A DNA stretch of 64,000 nucleotides. It comes from Ohtaekwangia koreensis (lineage in GTDB: Bacteria > Bacteroidota > Bacteroidia > Cytophagales > Cyclobacteriaceae). Shown here one piece after another: positions 6,220 to 19,128 of this stretch (the first letter of the stretch is position 1; each line of letters opens with the position of its first letter). The translations under genes and the position numbers were made by a program. The notes below the pieces were generated by a model that was not told the DNA's origin, ran no database searches, and saw only the letters and a list, made by a program, of their open reading frames with translations. The DNA lies in NCBI RefSeq assembly GCF_900167975.1, contig NZ_FUZU01000001.1, forward strand, positions 1,646,580 through 1,710,579. The letters run 5' to 3'.

Positions 6220-8574
6220 ATGTGTTCGCGCTATAAAATATACCTTACCCTTTTGTTACTATATGTAGTGTTTATACCTGCAATCTCACAAGATCGACAG
6301 GCCGGGCATCCGTTCTTGTTCTTTACAAAAGATCGCGTTCAACACTTGCAGGAAACAATAAAGAAAGATACCGCGATTGCCCGTGCCTGGAGTGACATGA
6401 AAACCAAAGTGGATCGCTTGTTGGCAGAAAGTAAAGAGGCAAATATAGAGGTGTTAAGCCTGGCCTGGTGTATGACCGGTGATGTGAAATATGCAGTGGC
6501 TGCCCGTAGCAACTTATTGCAGTTGATTGACCGGAAGCAGTGGGATGGAATGGATGATCGGACACCGCGTTGGAATTCCGGACTTAATACTGCACATACA
6601 TGCTTTTCCGCAGCGGTGGCCTTTGATTGTATATATGTATACCTGACCCCGGCTGATCGAAAGCAGATAGCACAGGGGATTTTACAGCTTGGCATTAAGC
6701 CGTTGCTCGATGACTGGATTTCAGAAGACAAACGAATTCATTCCCTGAACTCGATGGGACACAATTGGTGGAGCGCCTGTGCGTATATGGCTGGCGTTGC
6801 GTCCATCGCGGTCAGACAGGAAATTCCCGAAGCAACGGAATGGGCTCACACCATTATGCAAGCCAGCAAGGAATGGTTTGCTTTTTCAGGAAGTGTTTTG
6901 GAAAATAAACCTTCGAACTTCGATGCTGCTGGAGGTTTCTATGAAAGTATAAGCTATGCTGATTTCGGAATGTCCGAGTATCTATACTTTCGTCTTGCAT
7001 ATACCCATGCATTTGGTGCAGTGAAAATGCCGTATGACGTGATGCTTGAAAAAACAGCGGACTGGTTTATCAACGGATGTTATCCAAATTCCAATCGTAT
7101 GATGTCATTGAACTTTGGTGACTCAAATCCTTTTGCTACGGGCGTGAAGCCTATCAAACTTATGCTCGCCCTCGGGTATAAAAAAGAGCAATACCAATGG
7201 TACTTGCAAGAAGTAAAAAACAGTGTAAGCAGAGATATTACTTCTCCTGTAGGTTTGGTGCTCGAACCCGATTATGATAATAAGATTTCTGTGCCAGCTC
7301 TGCCTCCATCGGCTATATATAGTGATATGGGCTGGGCGATGCTGCGCTCATCTTGGAATAAGAATGCAACACTGCTTGGAATTAAATGTGGCTATACCTG
7401 GAATCACGCACATGCTGATGCTGGTTCCTTCGTGCTGTACCACCGCGGAAAAAATCTATTGATCGATGGGGGTGATGTGAATTACGGATTGCCCGAGTAT
7501 AGCAGTTACTTTGTTCGAAGTGAAGCACACAACGTGATGTTGTTTAACGGTCAGGCACAGGACTCACAAGACCAGTATCATGCCGTTAAAAACCCTGGAC
7601 GATTGTATAATCTGATCGATGCAGGTAAACTTAAATATATACTCGCCGATGCAACCGGTCCTACATCGCATTTTTTCCTGAGGAACTACAGGAATTTCCT
7701 CTGGGTCGGTAATGTCATTCTTGTAATAGACGATGTAAAGACGTATGAGCCTGGTAAATTTGAATGGCTTCTGCATGCTGAGAAGGATGTAAAGCAGAAA
7801 GGTCCTGATTTGGAGATTACCTGTGATTCTGCTTCTGTATTAGTACGTCCTTTATTCCCAGAGATGCTACCCACAGGCTACCCGCATGATTTTCCGGAGA
7901 AAATGAAACTGGAAGAAAGAGTCGGCATAAAAGATCGCGATGCAAAAACAAAGATTACCTATTATGCTATATCTCCAGCGGAGCCTTCACGCCAGACTAA
8001 ATTTATAACCGCCATCCTGTTGCTGGATGATGCAAACAAACCTATAAAAACATTTACAGGTTCTTCCGGTGCCAGTGGAGCAGCTGGTCGAACCAACCTT
8101 CCTATACTTGAAAAACTGGAAGGCAAGGATATGATCGGGGTGAAGATAACACAAGGCGAGGAGGTGACTTATATATACTTTAACCTGTTGGCAGATGGAA
8201 GATTAATGCACCGGAACAGTATCAATACAATGAATGGTTGGGAAACCGATGCGTATATGTTGGTAATTACATTTCCAGAAAAATCCGATACTGGTAATCC
8301 TGACGATGCTACAGAATATTTTGTAAGCAACGGAAGTTTTTTACGAAAAGATGAAAAGGTAATCGTTCACTCACTTTCCAAAGTATTTATGTCGGTGCAA
8401 CATGATGATGGTAAACTAAATGTTCATTTACAAGGGCAGCCAATAATTAATGTAAAGTTGCTTGCGAACAAAAAGCCAACTGTCTTACGGGTGAATGACG
8501 TGAACACGTCCCCTATATATACAAAAGGAAAGTTGAAAATTGTTCTGGATGAAACTGCAAAAAGCGATCGATGA
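6220..8574 (+). CDS. Heparinase II/III-family polysaccharide lyase
   Basis: A 784-residue secreted protein with an N-terminal signal peptide (cleavage near AISQ). The N-terminal half is an (alpha/alpha) toroid: HPFLFFTKDRVQHLQ opening, MGHNWWSACAYMAG around 180-195, and GFYESISYADFG near 240. The second half is the heparinase II/III-like beta-sandwich, with the hallmark WNHAHADAGSF (His396 and His398 within it) and then LLIDGGDVNYGLPEY and SEAHNVML. This family contains heparin, alginate, ulvan and related lyases that act by beta-elimination on uronic-acid linkages. It probably releases unsaturated oligosaccharides that the GH88 encoded next would process. I cannot assign a PL family number with confidence. 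Confidence 0.85.
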   Translation: MCSRYKIYLTLLLLYVVFIPAISQDRQAGHPFLFFTKDRVQHLQETIKKDTAIARAWSDMKTKVDRLLAESKEANIEVLSLAWCMTGDVKYAVAARSNLLQLIDRKQWDGMDDRTPRWNSGLNTAHTCFSAAVAFDCIYVYLTPADRKQIAQGILQLGIKPLLDDWISEDKRIHSLNSMGHNWWSACAYMAGVASIAVRQEIPEATEWAHTIMQASKEWFAFSGSVLENKPSNFDAAGGFYESISYADFGMSEYLYFRLAYTHAFGAVKMPYDVMLEKTADWFINGCYPNSNRMMSLNFGDSNPFATGVKPIKLMLALGYKKEQYQWYLQEVKNSVSRDITSPVGLVLEPDYDNKISVPALPPSAIYSDMGWAMLRSSWNKNATLLGIKCGYTWNHAHADAGSFVLYHRGKNLLIDGGDVNYGLPEYSSYFVRSEAHNVMLFNGQAQDSQDQYHAVKNPGRLYNLIDAGKLKYILADATGPTSHFFLRNYRNFLWVGNVILVIDDVKTYEPGKFEWLLHAEKDVKQKGPDLEITCDSASVLVRPLFPEMLPTGYPHDFPEKMKLEERVGIKDRDAKTKITYYAISPAEPSRQTKFITAILLLDDANKPIKTFTGSSGASGAAGRTNLPILEKLEGKDMIGVKITQGEEVTYIYFNLLADGRLMHRNSINTMNGWETDAYMLVITFPEKSDTGNPDDATEYFVSNGSFLRKDEKVIVHSLSKVFMSVQHDDGKLNVHLQGQPIINVKLLANKKPTVLRVNDVNTSPIYTKGKLKIVLDETAKSDR

Positions 8575-8636
8575 TCTTGATGATAGCTATTTTTTGGTCT
8601 ATGTTAATGTGGGTATAAGCAGCTTATATATTGAAT

Positions 8637-9887
8637 ATGAAAGATGTAATGGTTACAAGTATGGTAAGTGAACAAGCTGCAAGACGGAGCATGTTAAAAC
8701 GATATATACTGATGGCCGGTTTAATGATTCTTTTGGCGCTAACCAGTGCCGCATGGATTAAGTACAGGAATGACGCATCCTTGGATGTAAACGAGAATCT
8801 TGATTACTGCGTGGATCAGGCTCGTAAAACATTACTCCAAATTCCTGGCGGAGCTTTGATGCCTCGTAGTATCGACCATGATAAATCTTCCTGGCGATAT
8901 GTACCCATCGAAGATTGGACAAGCGGCTTTTGGCCTGGTACGCTGTGGTATATTTACGAAGCCACTGGCGATGAACAATGGAGGGTAGAAGCGGATAGAT
9001 ATACCCGGATGCTCGCACCTTTATCACAACGCAGGGCAATGGATCATGATCTTGGGTTCCAAATGTTTTCAAGCTTCGGTAACGGCTATCGTCTTATACA
9101 AGATACTTCCTATAAAGAAATAATTCTTCGTACAGCCGATACGTTGGCAACGCTATATAATGAAGCAGCCGGAACCATCCGATCGTGGCCCGGAATGGTG
9201 AAGGAAAAAGGATGGCCGCACAATACGATCATCGATAATATGATTAATCTTGAATTATTATTCTGGGCCAGCAAGCATGGCGGTGATAAATCATTGTATG
9301 ATATAGCTGTTCGTCACGCAGAGACGACCATGAAAAATCATTTCCGTCCTGACTATACGTCTTACCATGTTGTACTCTATGATACCCTTACCGGGGAGAA
9401 AATTAAAGGTATGACGCACCAGGGATTTTCAGATGAAAGTATGTGGGCTCGTGGACAGGCCTGGGCTATTTATGGATTTACAATGGTATATCGTGAAACG
9501 AAGGATCGCAGATTTCTCGATTTTGTACAAGCGGTGATAGATGTATACTTGTCTCATTTACCGGCAGACGATATTCCGTACTGGGATTTTAATGCGCCTC
9601 GTATTCCTCATGAGACTCGCGATGCTTCGGCCGCAGCCATTACTGCATCGGCTTTGCTTGAACTTGCAAGGTATGTTCCGAAGTCTAAGAGCGATTACTA
9701 TCAGGAAAAGGCAACACGAATGCTATATATCCTTTCATCGGAGCAATACCAGAGCCGTAATCGTAACGCATCATTTCTTCTTCATTCAACAGGTCATCGG
9801 CCTAATGGAACGGAGGTTGATGCATCCATTATTTATGCTGATTACTATTATATCGAAGCATTGTTGAGACTAAAGGTCCTGCAATAA
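8637..9887 (+). CDS. Glycoside hydrolase family 88, unsaturated uronyl hydrolase
   Basis: GH88 enzymes hydrate the 4,5-unsaturated uronic acid left at the non-reducing end after lyase cleavage. The protein has an N-terminal hydrophobic anchor (about residues 23-42, from Ile-Leu-Met to Ala-Trp) and an (alpha/alpha)6 barrel. Conserved segments visible are WTSGFWPGTLWY, HDLGFQMF with Asp138, IIDNMINLELLFWA with Asp200 (the two expected catalytic Asp residues), WARGQAWAIYGF and RDASAAAITASALLEL. The ATG at 8637 is chosen over an in-frame TTG at 8631. It starts 62 bases after the lyase gene in the same direction, and the lyase/GH88 pair is a classical two-step route. Confidence 0.9.
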   Translation: MKDVMVTSMVSEQAARRSMLKRYILMAGLMILLALTSAAWIKYRNDASLDVNENLDYCVDQARKTLLQIPGGALMPRSIDHDKSSWRYVPIEDWTSGFWPGTLWYIYEATGDEQWRVEADRYTRMLAPLSQRRAMDHDLGFQMFSSFGNGYRLIQDTSYKEIILRTADTLATLYNEAAGTIRSWPGMVKEKGWPHNTIIDNMINLELLFWASKHGGDKSLYDIAVRHAETTMKNHFRPDYTSYHVVLYDTLTGEKIKGMTHQGFSDESMWARGQAWAIYGFTMVYRETKDRRFLDFVQAVIDVYLSHLPADDIPYWDFNAPRIPHETRDASAAAITASALLELARYVPKSKSDYYQEKATRMLYILSSEQYQSRNRNASFLLHSTGHRPNGTEVDASIIYADYYYIEALLRLKVLQ

Positions 9888-10365: not shown

Positions 10366-11124
10366 ATGATCATCTCGATTGTCAATCATAAAGGAGGAAC
10401 CGGTAAAACTACTACAACCTTAAATCTGGGGGCGGCCCTGGCATTGAAAGGATACCGTATTTTGTTGGTAGATCTTGATGCACAAGGTAATCTAAGCTAT
10501 TCGCTGGGTGCAGCTGATGCAAGTGCAACGTTAAGCGATGTTTTGTTTGAAGAAGCGACATTGGAGGATGCACTTGTATCGTGTGAAGGTATGGATCTTT
10601 TACCCGGTAACACGAAGCTGGCGGACGTAGAACTCGCTCTATCTAAAATAGATAATCGGTATTTTTTGCTAAGGAATGCACTGCAACCTGCGGTTGATAA
10701 GTATGATTTTATATTGATGGACTGCCCGCCTTCGCTTTCACTTCTTACGGTAAATGCTTTATGCGCATCCGATAGTATACTGATTCCGCTCCAGCTTGAA
10801 GTATTGTCAGTGCGTGGACTTGATCTGATCCTCAATTCAATTTCCAAGATACAGGGGACACTTCATCCAGGTTTATCTATACTTGGCGTACTTCCTGTAT
10901 TGGTAGATATGCGTAAGAATCTGAACACAGAAATTGTGTCCTATATAAATACGAATTACAAACTCAAAATTTTCGAGAGCTATATCCGCTCCAATGTAAA
11001 GGCATCGGAAGCGCCTTCTTTTGGATCCAGTGTTATTCAGTATGCGCCGTCTTCAACGAGCGCACAAGACTATATCAAATTTTCGAAAGAGTTTTTAAAA
11101 GCGATACAACTAACATTGAAATAA
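10366..11124 (+). CDS. ParA/MinD-family ATPase at head of chemotaxis operon
   Basis: A 252-residue deviant-Walker ATPase. The P-loop is [10 protein letters not shown] with the signature Lys9 and Lys14, followed by [10 protein letters not shown] (Walker A') and [10 protein letters not shown] (Walker B). The length is that of the short, chromosomal or 'orphan' ParA/Soj class without an N-terminal DNA-binding extension. No ParB or parS follows; instead a soluble chemoreceptor begins 5 bases after the stop. ParA-like ATPases in other bacteria (PpfA of Rhodobacter sphaeroides, ParC of Vibrio) position chemosensory clusters, and I infer the same role here: ATP-dependent distribution of the cytoplasmic array over the nucleoid. 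Confidence 0.9.
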
Positions 11125-11129
11125 CCACT

Positions 11130-13445
11130 ATGGCTCTAGGTAAAAATCTAAGAAAGGAATCTGTATTGCCAACGGCAGTTCCGGCAAATCCAATTGATGA
11201 CATAACAAGCTTTGAAAATAAAAAAGACATGGATACGAATTTTGCAATGACGGAGGATAGTGAATCCATTTTAAAGATGGAGCAGATGCAGCGTGAACTG
11301 GACGCTCGCATGGCGCAAATCAATATAGCTTGTATTGTTTCAGAAGCCGATCTGAAAGGTGATATAATCTTTGTGAACGACAAGCTTTGTGAAGTGTCTC
11401 AATATACCCGTGAAGAATGTATTGGCCAACCACACAGTATGTTTCGTCATCCGGATACCCCGAAGGCAGTATTCAAAGAACTTTGGGCTACAATAGGCAG
11501 AGGCAAAATATTCAGAAGTGTAATCAAGAACAGGAAAAAAGATGGCAGTCCATATTGGGTTGATGCGTTGATCGCGCCAATTCTTGGACCGAACGGGAAA
11601 CCAATCAAATATATAGGAGTACGGTATGATATTACCGAGCAAGTACTCAAGGAAGAAGAACTGAAAAAATCGCAGATAGAATCCGAAGGACAGCTGGATG
11701 CCATCAACACGACCAATGCATTTATAGAGTTCAAAACCGATGGCACGATTGTAAAAGCGAACGATCTATTCCTGGAGGCGATGAAGTATCGACAGGAAGA
11801 TATCGTTGGAAAGCATCACCGTATATTTTGTGAAGATAGTTTTGTCCGGTCGAAAGAGTATGAGCACTTCTGGGAAGACCTTCGTAAAGGTAAAGCACGG
11901 ACCGGTGAATTTAAACGTGTTGCAAAAGATGGATCAGATGTATGGATCCAGGCAAGTTATACTCCTGTAAAAGATGCGACCGGTGAAGTCGTAAAGGTCA
12001 TTAAGATCGGTGTGGATGTCAGCGTTCAGAAATTTAAGAATGGTGATTACCAGGGGCAGTTGGATGCGATTGGAAAATCAAACGCGGTGATCGAGTATAA
12101 TATGGACGGCACCATCATCACAGCAAATGATAATTTCCTGGCAGCAATGGGAGGATACTCGCTAAATGAGATCGTAGGACGTCATCATCGTATGTTTGTC
12201 GATCAGGCGTATGCCAGAAGTGAAGAGTATAAAGATATATGGACCCGCTTGGGACGTGGAGAATTTTTTGTAGGTACATATTCGCGCATTGACAAGTATG
12301 GTAGGGAAGTATATCTGCAGGCATCCTATAATCCTATACTTGATCTGAACGGCCGGCCTTTTAAAGTTGTAAAGTTTGCATTGGATATGACCGAAGTAAT
12401 TCGTGTCATTAAAGCAATGGCCGGTGGCAACCTGGCACTTCGCTGTGATATATCAGTAGACAACGGTGGGCTCACACAAGAGATTAACAAGACACTCGAT
12501 AATCTTACTTCGGTGTTAAGTAATATTAGTCAGGGTTCAGATGTTGTTTCAAAATCATCAGATCTTCTGCAAAAGAAGACTGAAGAAATGAAACGTAATA
12601 CAACGGAAGTTGCATCGGCAATGAGTCAGATGGCGAAAGGCGCGCAAGACCAGGCGCAGCGTACAGATGAATCATCGAAGCTTGCAAATCATGTTATGAA
12701 CTCAGCTGCAGGCATGGAAAATAAAGCAGGCTTCATTAACAAAGCTGCTGAACGCGGTATGGAAAGTTCTAATTCTGGACTAAAGACTGTAAAGCATTTA
12801 GTGAAGAATATGAATGGTATAAAGGAGTCTGCAAGTCTCACGGCTCAATCCATTAGTGTATTGACAAAACGTTCTGAAGAGATAGGCCGTACGTTGCGTG
12901 TGATCACAGACATCGCGAGCCAAACTAATTTACTCGCATTGAATGCTGCTATTGAAGCTGCACGTGCAGGTGATGCAGGGCGTGGTTTTGCAGTTGTAGC
13001 GGAAGAGATACGCAAGCTCGCAGAAGATTCTCGTAAATCTGCAGTGGAGATTGAGAAGATCATCAGTGATGTGCAGAAAGACACTCATGCTGCCGGCAAA
13101 GCTATAGAAACCATGGAAGCCAGTGTAAAGGAAGGCACGCAGGCAACGGAAGAATCAGAACGTATATTCCAGGAGATAACAAAGTCTACAGAAGAGACCT
13201 TTGGTTTTTCAAAAGATATTCTGGATGCTGCGTCCGGTCAGAAGGGTGCCATTGATAGTGTAGTGAAAAATATAGAACAGATTGTAGTGGTGGCGGAAGA
13301 AACTGCTGCGGGTACCCAACAGGTTGCGGGCTCAAGCCAGCAAATGAATAATGGCATGCAGGAAATTTCAAGAGCAGGTGATGAACTCGCGGCTGTTGCT
13401 GCAGAGCTTCAGGCTGGTATTCAGCAATTCAAGCTTACGAAATAA
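11130..13445 (+). CDS. Soluble methyl-accepting chemotaxis protein with three PAS domains
   Basis: A 771-residue chemoreceptor without any membrane segment or signal peptide, so cytoplasmic. Three PAS domains occupy about 62-170, 187-300 and 308-425; the second and third are clear duplicates sharing GQLDAI, HHR(I/M)F and (I/L)QASY. A short HAMP-like segment (about 430-470) precedes the signalling coiled coil, whose hairpin tip carries the canonical [20 protein letters not shown] (around 598-617) and [16 protein letters not shown]. There is no C-terminal CheR/CheB docking pentapeptide; the protein ends in QQFKLTK. The first residues [10 protein letters not shown] resemble the ParA-contacting N-terminus of ParB. 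It is likely an internal redox, energy or small-ligand sensor. A heme- or FAD-binding PAS cannot be distinguished. Confidence 0.93.
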
Positions 13446-13490: not shown

Positions 13491-14012
13491 ATGAGTACAA
13501 GAGCACAAGAAGAGAATAATCAAACCAGTGGGTACGCGAGTACTTTTCAAATTGTAGTATTCCGTCTCGGTGACGAAGAATATGGTATAAGCATTGATCA
13601 GATAAAGGAAGTCGTGATCACGCCAACCATTACGCGTGTTCCTCAAAAACCTGCATTCATTAAAGGTGTGGCAAACATTCGCGGGAACATTATCGCGATC
13701 CTGGACCTGGAGCAAAAATTCGGATTGCAAAAGACAGAAGAAACGATGCCGTCTAATAATAACTTTACACTTGTTATTGACAGTAACGAGTATAAAATGG
13801 GTGTGCTCGTAAAAGAGGTTCCCAATACACTTACTATATCTTCGAGTGCTGTTGAGGATTTTATCTTTACAGGTGATGGTAATGTTGAGCAGTCCTATAT
13901 CAAAGGCATTGTTAAACTCGATAAAAGACTAATCATCATGATTGATATTTTCAAGGTACTCAGTCAGCAGGAAGAACAACAGATTTTTAAAAAACAAACT
14001 ATTTCTATATGA
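13491..14012 (+). CDS. cheW: Chemotaxis coupling protein CheW
   Basis: A 173-residue CheW that links chemoreceptors to CheA. The two SH3-like subdomains are recognisable from FQIVVFRLGDEEYGISIDQI at the N-terminus, RVPQKPAFIKGVANIRGNII in the middle (the typical receptor/CheA-binding loop) and a C-terminal IKGIVKLDKRLIIMIDI strand pair. It starts 45 bases after the receptor gene and overlaps the next gene by 4 bases (ATGA), so it is translationally coupled to cheD. Confidence 0.95.
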   Translation: MSTRAQEENNQTSGYASTFQIVVFRLGDEEYGISIDQIKEVVITPTITRVPQKPAFIKGVANIRGNIIAILDLEQKFGLQKTEETMPSNNNFTLVIDSNEYKMGVLVKEVPNTLTISSSAVEDFIFTGDGNVEQSYIKGIVKLDKRLIIMIDIFKVLSQQEEQQIFKKQTISI

Positions 14013-14464
14013 TGTCCCATATACTAAATATCAATGATATTGCTGTATCAGCAAAGCCTGTAGAACTTGTTTGCTTTGGCCTCGGCTCCTGCATCGGATT
14101 ATTTGTTACCGATAGAATTAAGAAAGTTTCCGGTGGTGTACATATTCCCTTACCAGGCGGAACGACAGGCATAGACATGAAGGGCGCGGATGAATTGCTG
14201 GAGCAGATGCTGCAGAAAGTTCAAAGTAAAGGAGGTAACCTTAACCGGCTGCGCGCAAAAGTTACAGGAGGTTCGAGTATACTATCGCATGAAAATGCTA
14301 TTGGAGAGCAGAATGCTCTTTCAGTGGTACAACTGCTTCAGGCAAGAAAAATATATATAGCAGCAACCGACCTGGGCGGAAATGTATCGCGATCGGTCCG
14401 TTTTAACAGCGTTACTCAAGAGCTTATTATTTCTACCTCTACACATGAATTTTATAAGATTTAA
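14009..14464 (+). CDS. cheD: Chemoreceptor glutamine deamidase CheD
   Basis: A 151-residue CheD. The cysteine-protease-like active site is visible as GLGSCIG with Cys28 and GGVHIPLPG with His45, and the downstream KVTGGSSIL loop is typical. CheD deamidates Gln residues in receptor methylation helices and in several species binds CheC to stimulate its phosphatase activity; a CheC-like gene is present later in this operon. The ATGA overlap with cheW sets the start. The family often shows CheY-P dependent feedback through CheC. Confidence 0.93.
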   Translation: MMSHILNINDIAVSAKPVELVCFGLGSCIGLFVTDRIKKVSGGVHIPLPGGTTGIDMKGADELLEQMLQKVQSKGGNLNRLRAKVTGGSSILSHENAIGEQNALSVVQLLQARKIYIAATDLGGNVSRSVRFNSVTQELIISTSTHEFYKI

Positions 14465-14481
14465 AGTAAACGACACCCTGT

Positions 14482-14838
14482 ATGAGTAAAAATGTTTTAG
14501 TAGTTGATGACTCACTTTATATGAGAACCATTATCAAAGACGCGCTTGAGCAAGGCGGATATACAGTTGTCGGCCAGGCAGCCAGTGGTGAGCAGGCTAT
14601 AGATATGGCATTTGATCTTAACCCCGATATCATAACACTCGATAATATTCTTCCGGATATGCTCGGCAGCGATATCCTTAAAGTATACCGCGCGGAAGGA
14701 CTATCCTCCAAGATAATTATGATTAGTGCGGTAGGGCAGGAGTCTGTTATTCAGGAGGAACTCAGCCTGGGCGCCATTGCCTATATAGTAAAGCCTTTTA
14801 CAACGGAGCAGCTATTGCAAACCTTTCACGCGCTTTAA
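14482..14838 (+). CDS. cheY: Chemotaxis response regulator CheY
   Basis: A 118-residue single receiver domain. The acidic pair is Asp9/Asp10, the phosphoacceptor is Asp54 (ITLDNILPDM), Ser82 (ISAVG) occupies the Thr/Ser switch position and Lys104 is the conserved lysine (YIVKPF). Phosphorylated by CheA, it would carry the signal to the motility machinery. No flagellar switch gene is nearby, so the target may be the gliding or type IV pilus apparatus, or another output. It starts 17 bases after cheD. Confidence 0.93.
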   Translation: MSKNVLVVDDSLYMRTIIKDALEQGGYTVVGQAASGEQAIDMAFDLNPDIITLDNILPDMLGSDILKVYRAEGLSSKIIMISAVGQESVIQEELSLGAIAYIVKPFTTEQLLQTFHAL

Positions 14839-14844
14839 TTAAAC

Positions 14845-15888
14845 GTGAGCAAAAAGAAAATCAATACGCTTTTAATTGACGACTCCGGGCTTATGCGCAT
14901 CATACTTTCTGACTTGCTTCGTGAAGATAGTAGAATCAATCTACTAGCTACTGCGAGTAACGGACGTGACGGTGTTGCAAAAGCAAAGGCGTTGAAGCCT
15001 GATGTTGTCATTACAAATATGATTATGCCGCTTTACGATGGGCTATTTGTCGTGAAAGCGCTTATGAAAGATATGCCCTTGCCTATTATTTTAATCAGCT
15101 CACTTCAACGCACAGACCCACAAATATTTGATGCTTTACAGGAAGGCGCTTTTGCCTTTTTAGAGAAACCGCAGGAGCAAGAAATCTCCAATGGATATCC
15201 GCGTCTGAAAACACTTGTATACAAGGCAAGCCAGGGAAGCGATCTTGACTTTACTCACGACACAGGTGTAAGCAATGTAGCCGAATATACTTCATCAGCT
15301 CTACCCCAATACGATATTATAGCGATCGGTGTATCTACCGGTGGCCCGAAGGCAATTGAACATATAGTTCATAATTTACCCCAGACTATAGATGTACCGA
15401 TTATTATAGCGCAACATATGCCGGAGTCTTTCATTGAGTCCTTTGCAAGCCGCCTGAATGAGACATCCGTAATCAATGTTTCAGTTGTGACCGATGGAGA
15501 AATTTTGCATCCTAATCATGTTTACCTGGCACCAGGTACTTCTAATATTCGCGTCTATAGAAATGAACATCAAAAACCGGCAGTCAGGTTTGTGAAGGAT
15601 ATATATAAAGAATTTAATAATCCTTCGATTGATTGCCTTTTTGAATCTATCGCAGAAATATACAGACACCGCGCAATGGCAATTGTGTTGACAGGCATGG
15701 GTAGAGATGGCACGGTAGGATTAACGAAAATAAAAGCACAGCGAGGTCTTACCATCGCACAAGATGAAGCATCTTCCGTTGTTTACGGCATGCCCAAGGT
15801 AGCTTTTGAATCGGGTGCAGCAACGCATCAATTGCCCATTACAGAAATTCCGGATTTCATTATACATAGCTTATACTTCCTTTCATGA
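14845..15888 (+). CDS. cheB: CheB methylesterase with non-canonical receiver
   Basis: A 347-residue receptor methylesterase starting at GTG. The C-terminal hydrolase domain (about 155-347) has a complete triad: Ser164 in GVSTGG, His191 in AQHMP and Asp288 in TGMGRDG. The N-terminal receiver keeps the acidic pair Asp12/Asp13, the Ser switch (ISS) and the Lys in FLEKP. At the phosphoacceptor position, however, the sequence is KPDVVITNMIMP, giving Asn58 where Asp is expected. Phosphorylation by CheA would normally relieve autoinhibition, so this enzyme may be constitutive or regulated differently. It overlaps cheA by 4 bases (ATGA). Confidence 0.92.
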   Translation: MSKKKINTLLIDDSGLMRIILSDLLREDSRINLLATASNGRDGVAKAKALKPDVVITNMIMPLYDGLFVVKALMKDMPLPIILISSLQRTDPQIFDALQEGAFAFLEKPQEQEISNGYPRLKTLVYKASQGSDLDFTHDTGVSNVAEYTSSALPQYDIIAIGVSTGGPKAIEHIVHNLPQTIDVPIIIAQHMPESFIESFASRLNETSVINVSVVTDGEILHPNHVYLAPGTSNIRVYRNEHQKPAVRFVKDIYKEFNNPSIDCLFESIAEIYRHRAMAIVLTGMGRDGTVGLTKIKAQRGLTIAQDEASSVVYGMPKVAFESGAATHQLPITEIPDFIIHSLYFLS

Positions 15889-17597
15889 GCAATAAAGAAG
15901 AAGAATATCGTGAAATCTTTTTGACAGAAGCACTAGAGAATTATACAGAGATCAATCGGCTGTTGACGGTTCTGGAAAAAAATCCTTCGGATATAAAACC
16001 GGTACATGCATTGTTTCGCATAACGCATACGCTAAAAGGCAACGCTACCGGTATGGGCTATGAGAAAATTGCAGAAGTAGCGCATGTTCTGGAAGATCTC
16101 TTTGATGCGATCCGTGACCAAAGGATAATGATCACTCCGGACATTTTTAAGTCTGTGTATAAAGCAGCGGATATAGTGGGGGAGTTGATCCAGGCAGTAA
16201 AGGAACCTCGTGATGTAAAATATAGAGGTATAAAAACAAAGCTTGAGGTATTGCTTCGCGAAGCTCAGCATAATCATGCGGTTACGATAAATACTCAGGC
16301 AATACTTCAAAGTATATCTGGAACAGATGAGGACGACCGTCAACTTGATATTATAGCAGAGGAACAATCCGATGAAGAAAGCGTTGACTTGAAATTTTCG
16401 TTTTCCGACTTGGTACAAGTACCGGTTCAAAAACTTGATAATTTGCTGAACCTGGTGGGAGAATTGATAATTGAACGTGATCGCATCATCACTTCCGGTA
16501 ATGGGAGACATACTACCAGTGAATACTCGCGGCTTAGCCGCATCTCATCCGACCTGCAATATTCGGTGATGGATGTAAGACTTGTGCCGGTTGATTTTCT
16601 TTTTAATAAATTTCATCGCATAGTTCGCGATGCAGCTACGAAAGAACAAAAATCAGTAACCTTAAAATTAAAAGGTACTGAAACGGAGATTGATCGAAAT
16701 ATACTTCAGGTGATCAGCGATTCCCTTATTCACCTGATCCGCAATGCTGTTGGTCATGGTATAGAAAAACCTGAGGTACGGAAGCAGGCAGGTAAAGCTG
16801 AGGAAGGAGTTGTTACGCTTGAGGCAAGTAGCGAATCTGACACTGTTATTATTACCATACAAGATGATGGTGCCGGAATTGACATGCCGCATATTCGGAA
16901 GAAAGCAATTGAAAAAGGTTTCCTCAATAATCAGGAGGCAACACAATGGAGTGATGCCGATATCATGATGCTAATCTTCGAGCCCGGCTTTTCAACAATG
17001 GAAGAAGTTACCGCGATTGCTGGAAGGGGTGTCGGAATGGATGTAGTAAGGAAAGCGCTTGATTCCATTGGTGGTACAATTCATATACAATCAACAAAAG
17101 GAGAGGGTACTACATTTTACATGCGTCTCCCGTCATCCATGGCGGTAAAGTCAACACTTCTTTTCGAATTGAACAATGAAACTTTTGCTATACCATTGTC
17201 CTATACAGAATCTGTAATTTCAATATATAAATCAGATATACATGCAGTGGCCCATGGATTGATCTCTGTACATCTGGGGAAAACAATCTCACTTGTATTT
17301 TTGAATGACTTGTTCAAGCATGAAAAGAACAGTGTAAAAACATTGGAACAATTGCATCCGGAGGCACGGATCGAAGTGGTCGTTGTTACATTCAATGGTA
17401 AACGAATGGGCTTCATCGTAGATAAATTATTGCAACAGAAAGAAATTATAGAGAAGCCACTTCATAAACCTGCAGATGGTATATCCTATATAAGTGGTGT
17501 TACTATTCTTGGAAATGGAAATGTATGTCTGGTTTTGAATATTCCAGGTATTCTAAATGTTATTAATCATAATCAATTTAATAAAGTGAGTTTATGA
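15885..17597 (+). CDS. cheA: Chemotaxis histidine kinase CheA
   Basis: A 570-residue CheA. P1 (Hpt) carries His48 in ITHTLKGNA. After P1 (about 1-120) a linker of only about 55 acidic residues leads to the P3 dimerisation helices (about 170-240), so the CheY/CheB-binding P2 domain appears to be missing. P4 has the N box HLIRNAVGHGIE, the G1 box DDGAGID and the G2 box AGRGVGMDVV. In the N box, Gly replaces the usual Asp before His-Gly. P5 (about 425-570) is the CheW-like regulatory domain, with GFIVDKLLQQKEIIEKPL. The short form without P2 is smaller than the usual 650-700 residues. Start and stop overlap cheB and the CheC-like gene by 4 bases each. Confidence 0.94.
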   Translation: MSNKEEEYREIFLTEALENYTEINRLLTVLEKNPSDIKPVHALFRITHTLKGNATGMGYEKIAEVAHVLEDLFDAIRDQRIMITPDIFKSVYKAADIVGELIQAVKEPRDVKYRGIKTKLEVLLREAQHNHAVTINTQAILQSISGTDEDDRQLDIIAEEQSDEESVDLKFSFSDLVQVPVQKLDNLLNLVGELIIERDRIITSGNGRHTTSEYSRLSRISSDLQYSVMDVRLVPVDFLFNKFHRIVRDAATKEQKSVTLKLKGTETEIDRNILQVISDSLIHLIRNAVGHGIEKPEVRKQAGKAEEGVVTLEASSESDTVIITIQDDGAGIDMPHIRKKAIEKGFLNNQEATQWSDADIMMLIFEPGFSTMEEVTAIAGRGVGMDVVRKALDSIGGTIHIQSTKGEGTTFYMRLPSSMAVKSTLLFELNNETFAIPLSYTESVISIYKSDIHAVAHGLISVHLGKTISLVFLNDLFKHEKNSVKTLEQLHPEARIEVVVVTFNGKRMGFIVDKLLQQKEIIEKPLHKPADGISYISGVTILGNGNVCLVLNIPGILNVINHNQFNKVSL

Positions 17598-18208
17598 CTA
17601 TATCTGATCACGTAAAGAAAAAGACTTCTGGAAGCGCAAAGATTGCTTTTGAAAATGGGTTTGAGAATGCAGCCGCGTCATTCTCTAAATTTATTAGCAC
17701 AGAAACGTCCTATACCATGCTACACCAGGGGCTTCATGCAGTGGAAGATGATAGTATCCACGGATTGAATATTAATGGGAAGAGTGGCACAAACTTTCTG
17801 TTGACCACTGACATCGTAGGGGATGTGTATGGCAAGAGTTATCTTTTGCTGGATGCTTCCGAGTTTGATGCGCTTTCGAGTGGTGTGTACGCGAAGGAAG
17901 AAACCATGATGGACATTAAGGAAGAGTTCATTAAAGAGCTGGATAACATTCTGTCCGCTTCGGTTATCACCAAGCTTTCCAATGAGTTGAATCTGAATAT
18001 ATATGGAAATATACCGATTCTTGTAAAGCCACAGAGTTGCTGTTTAATGAATATAATTTATGACGATTTCTCAGAGGACTCGGAAGGTATATATGTTAAC
18101 GCAATCCATTTTAGCTTTGAGAAATATCCTATGTTAACACCTTACTTTGTATGGGTAATGGATCTCAATGTTTTTGACACGATAGAATCGAAATCAGAAT
18201 TATCCTAA
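17594..18208 (+). CDS. CheC-like CheY-P phosphatase
   Basis: A 204-residue protein of the CheC/CheX/FliY fold. One phosphatase signature is visible as ELDNILSASVITKLS around residues 115-130, matching the E-x2-N pattern of CheC. The N-terminal counterpart (FENGFENAAASFSKF) aligns with the first CheC motif but lacks the Glu and Asn at the expected spacing, so only one site seems functional. CheC dephosphorylates CheY-P and partners with CheD, which is encoded in the same operon. It could alternatively be named CheX-like. It overlaps cheA by 4 bases (ATGA). Confidence 0.75.
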   Translation: MTISDHVKKKTSGSAKIAFENGFENAAASFSKFISTETSYTMLHQGLHAVEDDSIHGLNINGKSGTNFLLTTDIVGDVYGKSYLLLDASEFDALSSGVYAKEETMMDIKEEFIKELDNILSASVITKLSNELNLNIYGNIPILVKPQSCCLMNIIYDDFSEDSEGIYVNAIHFSFEKYPMLTPYFVWVMDLNVFDTIESKSELS

Positions 18209-18276: not shown

Positions 18277-19128
18277 ATGAGTGAGAAGCTATATAAGCCT
18301 TCAGAAACAATAACGATCACCGATGAAGAGCTTCAATCTCTTGCCTTGGCTATCTTTAAACGTCATGGTATTGATTTTACCTGCTATGAACGTCTTTCAT
18401 TGAAGCGAAGGATCATCCGTGCAATGGGTATCTTTAATATAGATTCGATCCATGGGCTGTGGACAATGATTCTTTCCGACCGCGCATTTATTTATTCCTT
18501 CATGGACGAAATCAGTGTCGGACTAACAGCTTTATTTCGCGATCCTGTTCTCTGGCGAAAGTTGAAGTCGCTTTTGAGGAATGACCAGATGATCTCAAAG
18601 TCTTCCTTGGCAATCTGGCATGCGGGCTGTTCTACGGGCGAAGAGATTTATAGTATGGGCATTGTTCTGAAGGAATCGATGTACGAGAAGCCGGTTACAG
18701 CATGGGCGACAGATATCAGCAAGCAATCCATTGATCATGCGCAGCGTGGTGAATATCACCAGATGAAATTTCAGGAATATGAGCAGAACTATAAAGAGTA
18801 TAACATATATGGCTCTCTAAAGAATTATGCAGTACAGGATGCAGGGTCTTTTCGAATGTATACCGGACTTGTTGATCACGTAACATTCGAATATCATAAC
18901 CTGATCACAGATCAGTTCAATAAAAAATTCGATATCATCTTTTGTAGGAACGTGATGATATACTTTGATAATGGAGCCAAGAGCAAGCTCCTGAAAAAAT
19001 TCCATGAGTCACTTAATCCTGGAGGACTATTAATCATCGGATTCTATGACGCCATCATGTCATTGATTGATCCTGATAAATTCCAAGTTCTCGATTTGAA
19101 TGCCAAGATCTTTATAAAGGTTGAATAG
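18277..19128 (+). CDS. cheR: Chemotaxis protein methyltransferase CheR
   Basis: A 283-residue S-adenosylmethionine-dependent methyltransferase that methylates Glu residues of chemoreceptors. The N-terminal helical CheR domain (about 15-85) is followed by the Rossmann domain, with the SAM-binding HAGCSTGEEIYS segment (about 115-126), the acidic WATDIS motif and CRNVMIYF. GAAGG (AGG in AAGKD) has been shortened, but the motif order is intact. A Shine-Dalgarno-like GAAGGA lies 5 bases before the ATG. It is the last gene of the operon, 68 bases after the CheC-like gene, and is convergent with the next gene, only 8 bases apart. Confidence 0.94.
   Translation: MSEKLYKPSETITITDEELQSLALAIFKRHGIDFTCYERLSLKRRIIRAMGIFNIDSIHGLWTMILSDRAFIYSFMDEISVGLTALFRDPVLWRKLKSLLRNDQMISKSSLAIWHAGCSTGEEIYSMGIVLKESMYEKPVTAWATDISKQSIDHAQRGEYHQMKFQEYEQNYKEYNIYGSLKNYAVQDAGSFRMYTGLVDHVTFEYHNLITDQFNKKFDIIFCRNVMIYFDNGAKSKLLKKFHESLNPGGLLIIGFYDAIMSLIDPDKFQVLDLNAKIFIKVE

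Follow-up and report, generated by a model that had tools for sequence, protein, structure and literature searches.

The chemotaxis operon in the 64-kb window, by which we mean the whole stretch of DNA that was analysed, would encode a cytoplasmic chemosensory array together with its own ParA-type positioning ATPase, the putative cargo tag of this ATPase being the first 8 to 14 residues of the operon's soluble receptor. In this regard, we consider it probable, from comparisons of sequence, that the tag is the docking and activating peptide of the ATPase, which in turn would space the array, probably on the nucleoid. The conserved N-terminal tag of the receptor co-occurs with the ATPase, and it is from this co-occurrence that binding of the one to the other is predicted. 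If this reading is true, ParA-based positioning of arrays extends to the Bacteroidota, the members of which are known more for their gliding than for flagella.

The operon and its ATPase

All genes of the operon lie on the + strand. The first of them encodes a deviant-Walker ATPase of the ParA type (10366..11124; 252 aa; Pfam AAA_31, 9.7e-54), the stop codon of which (11122-11124) is separated by 5 bases from the ATG (11130) of the soluble chemoreceptor (11130..13445; 771 aa), a spacing that had been given in an initial annotation of this DNA and that the ORF coordinates confirm. The receptor is made up of the N-terminal tag (codons 1-14, 11130..11171), which is the proposed ParA-docking and ParA-activating peptide, followed by three stretches of PAS domain and by the MCP signalling domain (MCPsignal, 3e-44). 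It contains no hydrophobic 19-mer, its top Kyte-Doolittle mean being 1.29, such that hydropathy agrees with the earlier description of a receptor with no membrane segment. Downstream lie CheW (13491..14012; 173 aa), which is untagged and has no N-terminal extension, CheD (14009..14464), a CheY-type single receiver domain (14482..14838; Pfam response regulator), CheB (14845..15888), CheA (15885..17597; Hpt, dimerisation, HATPase and CheW domains), a CheC-like protein (17594..18208; 204 aa) and CheR (18277..19128). The cheW-D-Y-B-A-C-R order of the annotation stands, with Pfam matches over the cut-off for every one of these proteins except the CheC-like one, the assignment of which is weak; it has no Pfam family match, and its match to the NCBIfam CheC model (7.5e-4) is far under the cut-off. 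Just upstream of the operon, positions 6220-9887 of the window hold a heparinase II/III-like gene and then that of a glycosyl hydrolase family 88 protein, probably a polysaccharide-use locus.

The ATPase is an orphan insofar as no ParB gene adjoins it, and no parS-like site was found in the 64-kb window when up to 3 mismatches to the consensus were allowed; the locus is without the ParB and parS that accompany ParA in ParABS systems. Both absences had been pointed out in the annotation and both hold, but the candidate partner had been missed there, namely the receptor's own N-terminal residues. What the locus does have is the PpfA-TlpT type of arrangement, where an ATPase gene adjoins that of a soluble receptor inside a che operon. 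Elsewhere in the same genome (G000), a Soj-like ParA is followed by a ParB-like gene (G000:C6, about 1829 kb), and this Soj-like ParA is just 41% identical to the ParA of the window.

The nearest solved structure to the window ParA by sequence is that of a ParA family protein (8ray, 1.9e-51), and the PDB sequence search also matches 1wcv (2.1e-43), which we take to be the Thermus-type Soj; as judged from these matches, the ATPase is a member of the ParA/Soj group. It belongs to a clade which, in a search of 148 genomes of the family, was delimited by ParA matches at E<=3.5e-71, the next best match being 3.2e-58. Two trees, one of 66 and one of 73, set it apart from Soj and the remaining ParAs, with support of 100/100 and 100/99 respectively. 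The Walker motif of the clade is KGGTGKT, its T being present in 30 of 31 members, and K9 and K14 are invariant in all 31, giving KGGxGKT with the signature lysine. Two basic DNA-binding positions are also kept, R183 in 30/31 and K/R212 in 31/31 members; these were matched by local motif to R195 and R224 of Caulobacter ParA, which are given as basic DNA-binding residues in PMC7229837. Residues specific to the class in comparison with Soj include T12, Y45, S125, V178, E189, S222 and P228, which are candidates for recognition of the tag in place of ParB; insulation of the paralogue from Soj would depend on positions such as these.

Clade ParAs are present in 17 of the 148 family genomes, the window's own included. 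In 15 of the 16 others the gene sits among che genes, in some of them with the receptor preceding it; in the sixteenth (G077) it lies outside the che genes, and a che operon with a tagged receptor is found on another contig. Since the placement of ParA within che operons recurs among relatives while the gene order varies, it is not a matter of chance. The initial annotation had staked its claim on ParA being conserved next to soluble receptors in related genomes, and comparison of gene order across genomes shows that this adjacency does recur and is kept in several family codes. The coupling of the ATPase to the receptor thus withstands the refuting condition set there, and the N-terminal tag that is shared offers a plausible mechanism for it, but the link is to a tagged component of the array and not to soluble receptors as such, because those relatives whose receptors are membrane-bound bear the tag on CheW or on a STAS-like protein. 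As to the number of ParA-family genes, two genomes, G049 and G113, have ten matches each at E<=1e-30, the rest of the 28 genomes searched having at most 2.

The N-terminal tag and its carriers

All 17 clade-positive family genomes have the tag, MALGxNLK or a close variant, at the start of a che protein (soluble receptor or CheW) or of a STAS-like one, the ParA-adjacent protein starting with near-identical residues whatever its type. The CheW carriers have a long, mostly Lys-rich N-terminal extension (e.g. MALGKNLKKQKLIP). STAS-like carriers form a third group (e.g. MALGNNLKRIKKDSLIP), the assignment of which comes from a single Pfam hit that falls short of the curated cut-off (1.8e-5), with a second member placed by BLASTP similarity to the first. 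Across 81 distinct N-termini (46 distinct 14-mers), A2, L3 and K8 occur in 75, 78 and 71 respectively, and none of the 81 has fewer than two basic residues at tag positions 5-12; one of the 81, a 64-aa ORF (L174), is probably spurious, and the carrier counts use complete ORFs. M1, G4 and N6 are invariant, yet these three residues were demanded by the search expression, which also limited the choice at positions 3, 5 and 7. Codons of the tag vary synonymously between genomes, which points to selection on the tag at the protein level.

An [AG]LG[KR]xL-like core is common to the tag and to the N-terminus of the ParB of the same genome, a loose similarity; no more than 48 of the 81 tags have K or R at position 5, the residue aligned with the Arg/Lys of ParB. 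A profile of the N-termini of 17 Soj-linked ParBs raises the tagged proteins as a group, with a median of -3.1 versus -7.2, but with 1258 other ORFs for comparison none of the 33 passes the 99th percentile, for which reason homology of the tag to ParB is not claimed. Because the profile misses the tag and position 5 is so often neither K nor R, the likeness may serve as a weak hint only.

Which protein carries the tag follows the topology of the receptor. By hydropathy, all 31 complete tagged receptors are soluble, a count that includes close relatives. Where it is a CheW or STAS-like protein of the locus that bears the tag, membrane segments are present in all 17 of the complete receptors, which are untagged. 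The carrier in family codes f2 and f73 is a soluble receptor of great length, 1344 to 2090 aa where complete, with 10-11 HAMP stretches in the one that was scanned; che genes come next wherever the stretch is long enough to show them. In genus g278 the tagged protein, of 215-216 aa, matches PAS weakly, and the stretches read are free of che genes; it is a possible non-chemosensory cargo. Since ParA and tag persist on this PAS-like protein without che genes, the ParA clade may position cargo other than chemosensory arrays. Loci of the g278 type are L225, L226, L231 and L243, and in L226 a GAF-domain protein follows.

It could be argued that ParA is incidental to the operon and that the shared N-termini were inherited from one ancestral receptor gene, as most carriers are indeed receptors and neighbours on the tree have a common carrier. 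We regard this as very improbable. Besides receptors, the carriers include CheW, STAS-like and PAS-like proteins, the other domains of which differ; at the fewest, 4 changes of carrier are needed on the tree, with three new carriers, where starred branches force one change each for CheW, STAS and PAS; and the tag accompanies ParA even when the two are unlinked. The reading of ParA as a bystander is disfavoured, and we lean, by a small measure, towards the tag being a transferable address, in which one ParA clade of the order around this genome reads a conserved peptide that was transferred to proteins unrelated to one another, with the ATPase indifferent to its cargo. Were this true, then with membrane receptors the tag shifts to a soluble component of the array. 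The distance from the ParA stop to the ATG of the tag is -1 to 7 bases where the carrier listed is a CheW and 1 to 3 where it is STAS-like; it is 5 in the window and 117 to 337 in f2 and f73. With close spacing, a new downstream gene could presumably inherit the tag.

The tagged CheWs of relatives bear on where the array is placed. The CheW that comes after ParA there is much extended at its N-terminus, which is the architecture of ParP, the N-terminal domain of which interacts with ParC (PMC5706961), and in Halothiobacillus the partner of ParC taken for docking was a CheW (PMC10241942). Both parallels would suit an ATPase that does not distribute the array over the nucleoid but keeps it at a cell pole by way of a polar landmark. 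Such polar placement seems unlikely for the present operon; the tagged protein of the window is a soluble receptor, the extension that marks the tagged CheWs of relatives is missing from the window's CheW, and both basic DNA-binding positions are retained in ParA. A further alternative is suggested by Myxococcus, where FrzCD binds DNA through a basic N-terminal tail (excerpt of PMC5716589). Direct anchoring of this sort, in which the basic N-terminus itself holds the nucleoid and ParA only modulates signalling or expression, would agree with the linker after the tag (residues 15-74), which has at least 15 K/R in 9 of 11 ParA-adjacent CheWs and in 3/3 of the STAS-like proteins listed. The linker of the window is, however, acidic (5 K/R, 13 D/E), the second tagged CheWs are not Lys-rich, and the tag tracks the presence of ParA, which direct binding to DNA does not require, all of which leaves direct anchoring decidedly improbable.

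Tag and ATPase across genomes

The genomes compared here are related, so that the counts are not of independent events. A tag-first scan of GTDB species genomes found 39 loci. At 19 of them the tag opens an ORF of the receptor, CheW or STAS-like kind, and the remaining 20 are short or unrelated ORFs. Cultivated species among the loci are Marinoscillum furvescens DSM 4134 (L074) and Ekhidna lutea DSM 19307 (L066), in each of which the tagged protein is a CheW. ParA adjoins 17 of these 19 carriers, and the genomes of the remaining two hold a clade ParA elsewhere. From the other direction, a tag-blind profile of 19 clade ParAs, searched against 390 genomes of the order, found 56 ParA places in 55 genomes; ParA stands directly before a tagged protein at 49 of the 56 (48/54, plus G583, which is place L174, and G599, which is L173 and has no tagged neighbour). 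As for the 7 places lacking a tagged neighbour, two of the genomes (G557 and G599, with coordinates identical to those of G533 and G534) are tagged elsewhere, one place, a second ParA in G801, is not part of the clade, and no tag was found near ParA in the stretches read of G576, G601, G609 and G651. L227, L228, L224 and L230 are loci where clade ParAs have no tagged neighbour in the stretches read. The tag-first and ParA-first searches agree; they are not fully independent, since some members of the profile were found through the tag.

At the level of the phylum, the tag pattern matches 5 of 392 genomes, the window's own and 4 others, with 2 for the reversed control, and the stretches of the 4 others contain neither ParA nor a tagged che neighbour. 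A phylum-wide search with the single ParA protein fell below 1e-70 in the window's own genome only, of 392, which is a lower bound because the wider clade surfaced only with the profile search of the order.

Within the family, the DNA pattern of the tag is found at 32 places in 30 of 148 genomes, as against 10 places for the reversed pattern, and does not spell the tags of G060 and G072; that of G135 was seen in one frame next to a run of N. Starts of che or STAS-like proteins account for 17 of the 32 places, all in clade-positive genomes, and the other 15 (14 clade-negative genomes and one place in G072) lie inside other ORFs or start short ORFs. Put differently, the pattern matches 14 of the 131 family genomes below the clade threshold, never at the start of a che protein.

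Clade-negative genomes that do bear che genes were represented by the 25 best CheA scores of the 41 found, with one operon each and two in G090. Their best ParA reaches at most 252 bits in the profile search, versus 364-384 for three clade-positive genomes. Of the 45 receptor-like ORFs listed for these 25 genomes, 3 are cut at the start; the full tag is present on 0/42 of the others and on 0/28 CheWs, one stretch (G137) holding neither kind of ORF. Partial tags do occur in clade-negative che operons (L158, L171, L161), in the form of MALGKNSQ (G107), MALGKNGA (G090) and MTTGRNLKKK (G088); these are possible relics left after loss of the ATPase, or could be precursors.

Among clade-positive genomes, the operons with no adjacent ParA include untagged ones, namely two in the window's own genome and one of G052, and tagged ones, namely L154 (G014, with a variant of the tag), L118 (G035) and L120 (G077). 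The window's own genome has three MCP-domain genes. Its second che operon (L047; G000:C6, about 1587-1596 kb) has the identical gene order and a CheA that is 67% identical, without ParA, and there the tag is absent from both receptor and CheW, such that L047 provides an internal control for function in the same genome. The third operon (L048) consists of different, more distant genes, likewise without ParA. GldL is also present in this genome and, because of this, the output of the che operon may be gliding. Contrasts exist within genera too, in that of the window (G000 with; G074 and G127 without) and in g8 (G007 with; G088, which has the partial tag, and G133 without). Such contrasts, where ParA and tag are both present or both absent, offer a handle on the purpose of array positioning.

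Proposed positioning and comparison with known systems

Cargo-moving ParAs are described as ATP dimers on DNA that are released when the basic N-terminal stretch of a partner stimulates hydrolysis, and this mode of activation has been proposed to hold generally, Rhodobacter TlpT being one example suggested (PMC7993993 and PMC3964821); in the rule as worded in the former, a basic N-terminal stretch on an interaction domain makes a partner of ParA or MinD. By analogy, the tag would dock on a ParA dimer that has ATP and DNA bound and would set off hydrolysis of the ATP, acting like the basic N-termini of ParB or PomX, as has been proposed for TlpT. Receptor, CheW and CheA would then assemble into an array that displays many tags and which, because of these many tags, would track the ParA gradient over the nucleoid, becoming spaced and shared between daughter cells. 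The array would in this way be distributed by its own ParA. The membrane-bound arrays of relatives would be served by the same ParA clade, with the tag on CheW or on a STAS-like protein.

The partners of ParAs are so diverse that many ParAs have been termed orphans (PMC10241942). For the present clade the likely partner can be read from sequence, as a short N-terminal peptide that is found across families and whose carrier changes with receptor topology, and natural swaps of the tag make the rule that any protein given an N-terminal tag turns into cargo a testable one. Among the literature matches listed, which cover few subscription journals, there is no description of a ParA-chemotaxis system in this phylum, nor of MALGKN, in keeping with the initial annotation, which knew of no such system for the phylum.

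Of the known systems, ParABS (Soj-Spo0J) has in common with the window ATPase the ParA family and its motifs; it differs in that the window ParA has neither ParB nor parS with it and falls in a separate clade, the genome having its own Soj-ParB pair elsewhere. Activators of the PomX/McdB type are similar insofar as an N-terminal stretch is grafted onto an interaction domain, but their partners are diverse with a common charge, whereas here one conserved sequence is found on four kinds of carrier.

The PpfA-TlpT system of Rhodobacter sphaeroides is alike in that a ParA-like ATPase is encoded beside a soluble receptor, the N-terminus of which is the proposed ParB-like activator (as excerpted from PMC3964821 and PMC7993993). 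That system belongs to another phylum, however, and here one tag is on several carrier proteins; moreover, the Walker motif is KGGTGKT here and KGGVGKT as listed for PpfA in the excerpt of PMC9178275, a comparison by description and motif only. The ParC-ParP system of Vibrio and relatives also has a ParA-like ATPase within a che operon, and in many relatives of the window the tagged partner is, as in ParP, a CheW-domain protein with an N-terminal extension; in the window, by contrast, it is the receptor that bears the tag, and its CheW is a plain one. Taken as a whole, the clade uses the soluble receptor of PpfA-TlpT and the CheW-type partner of ParC-ParP, plus two more, with one tag.
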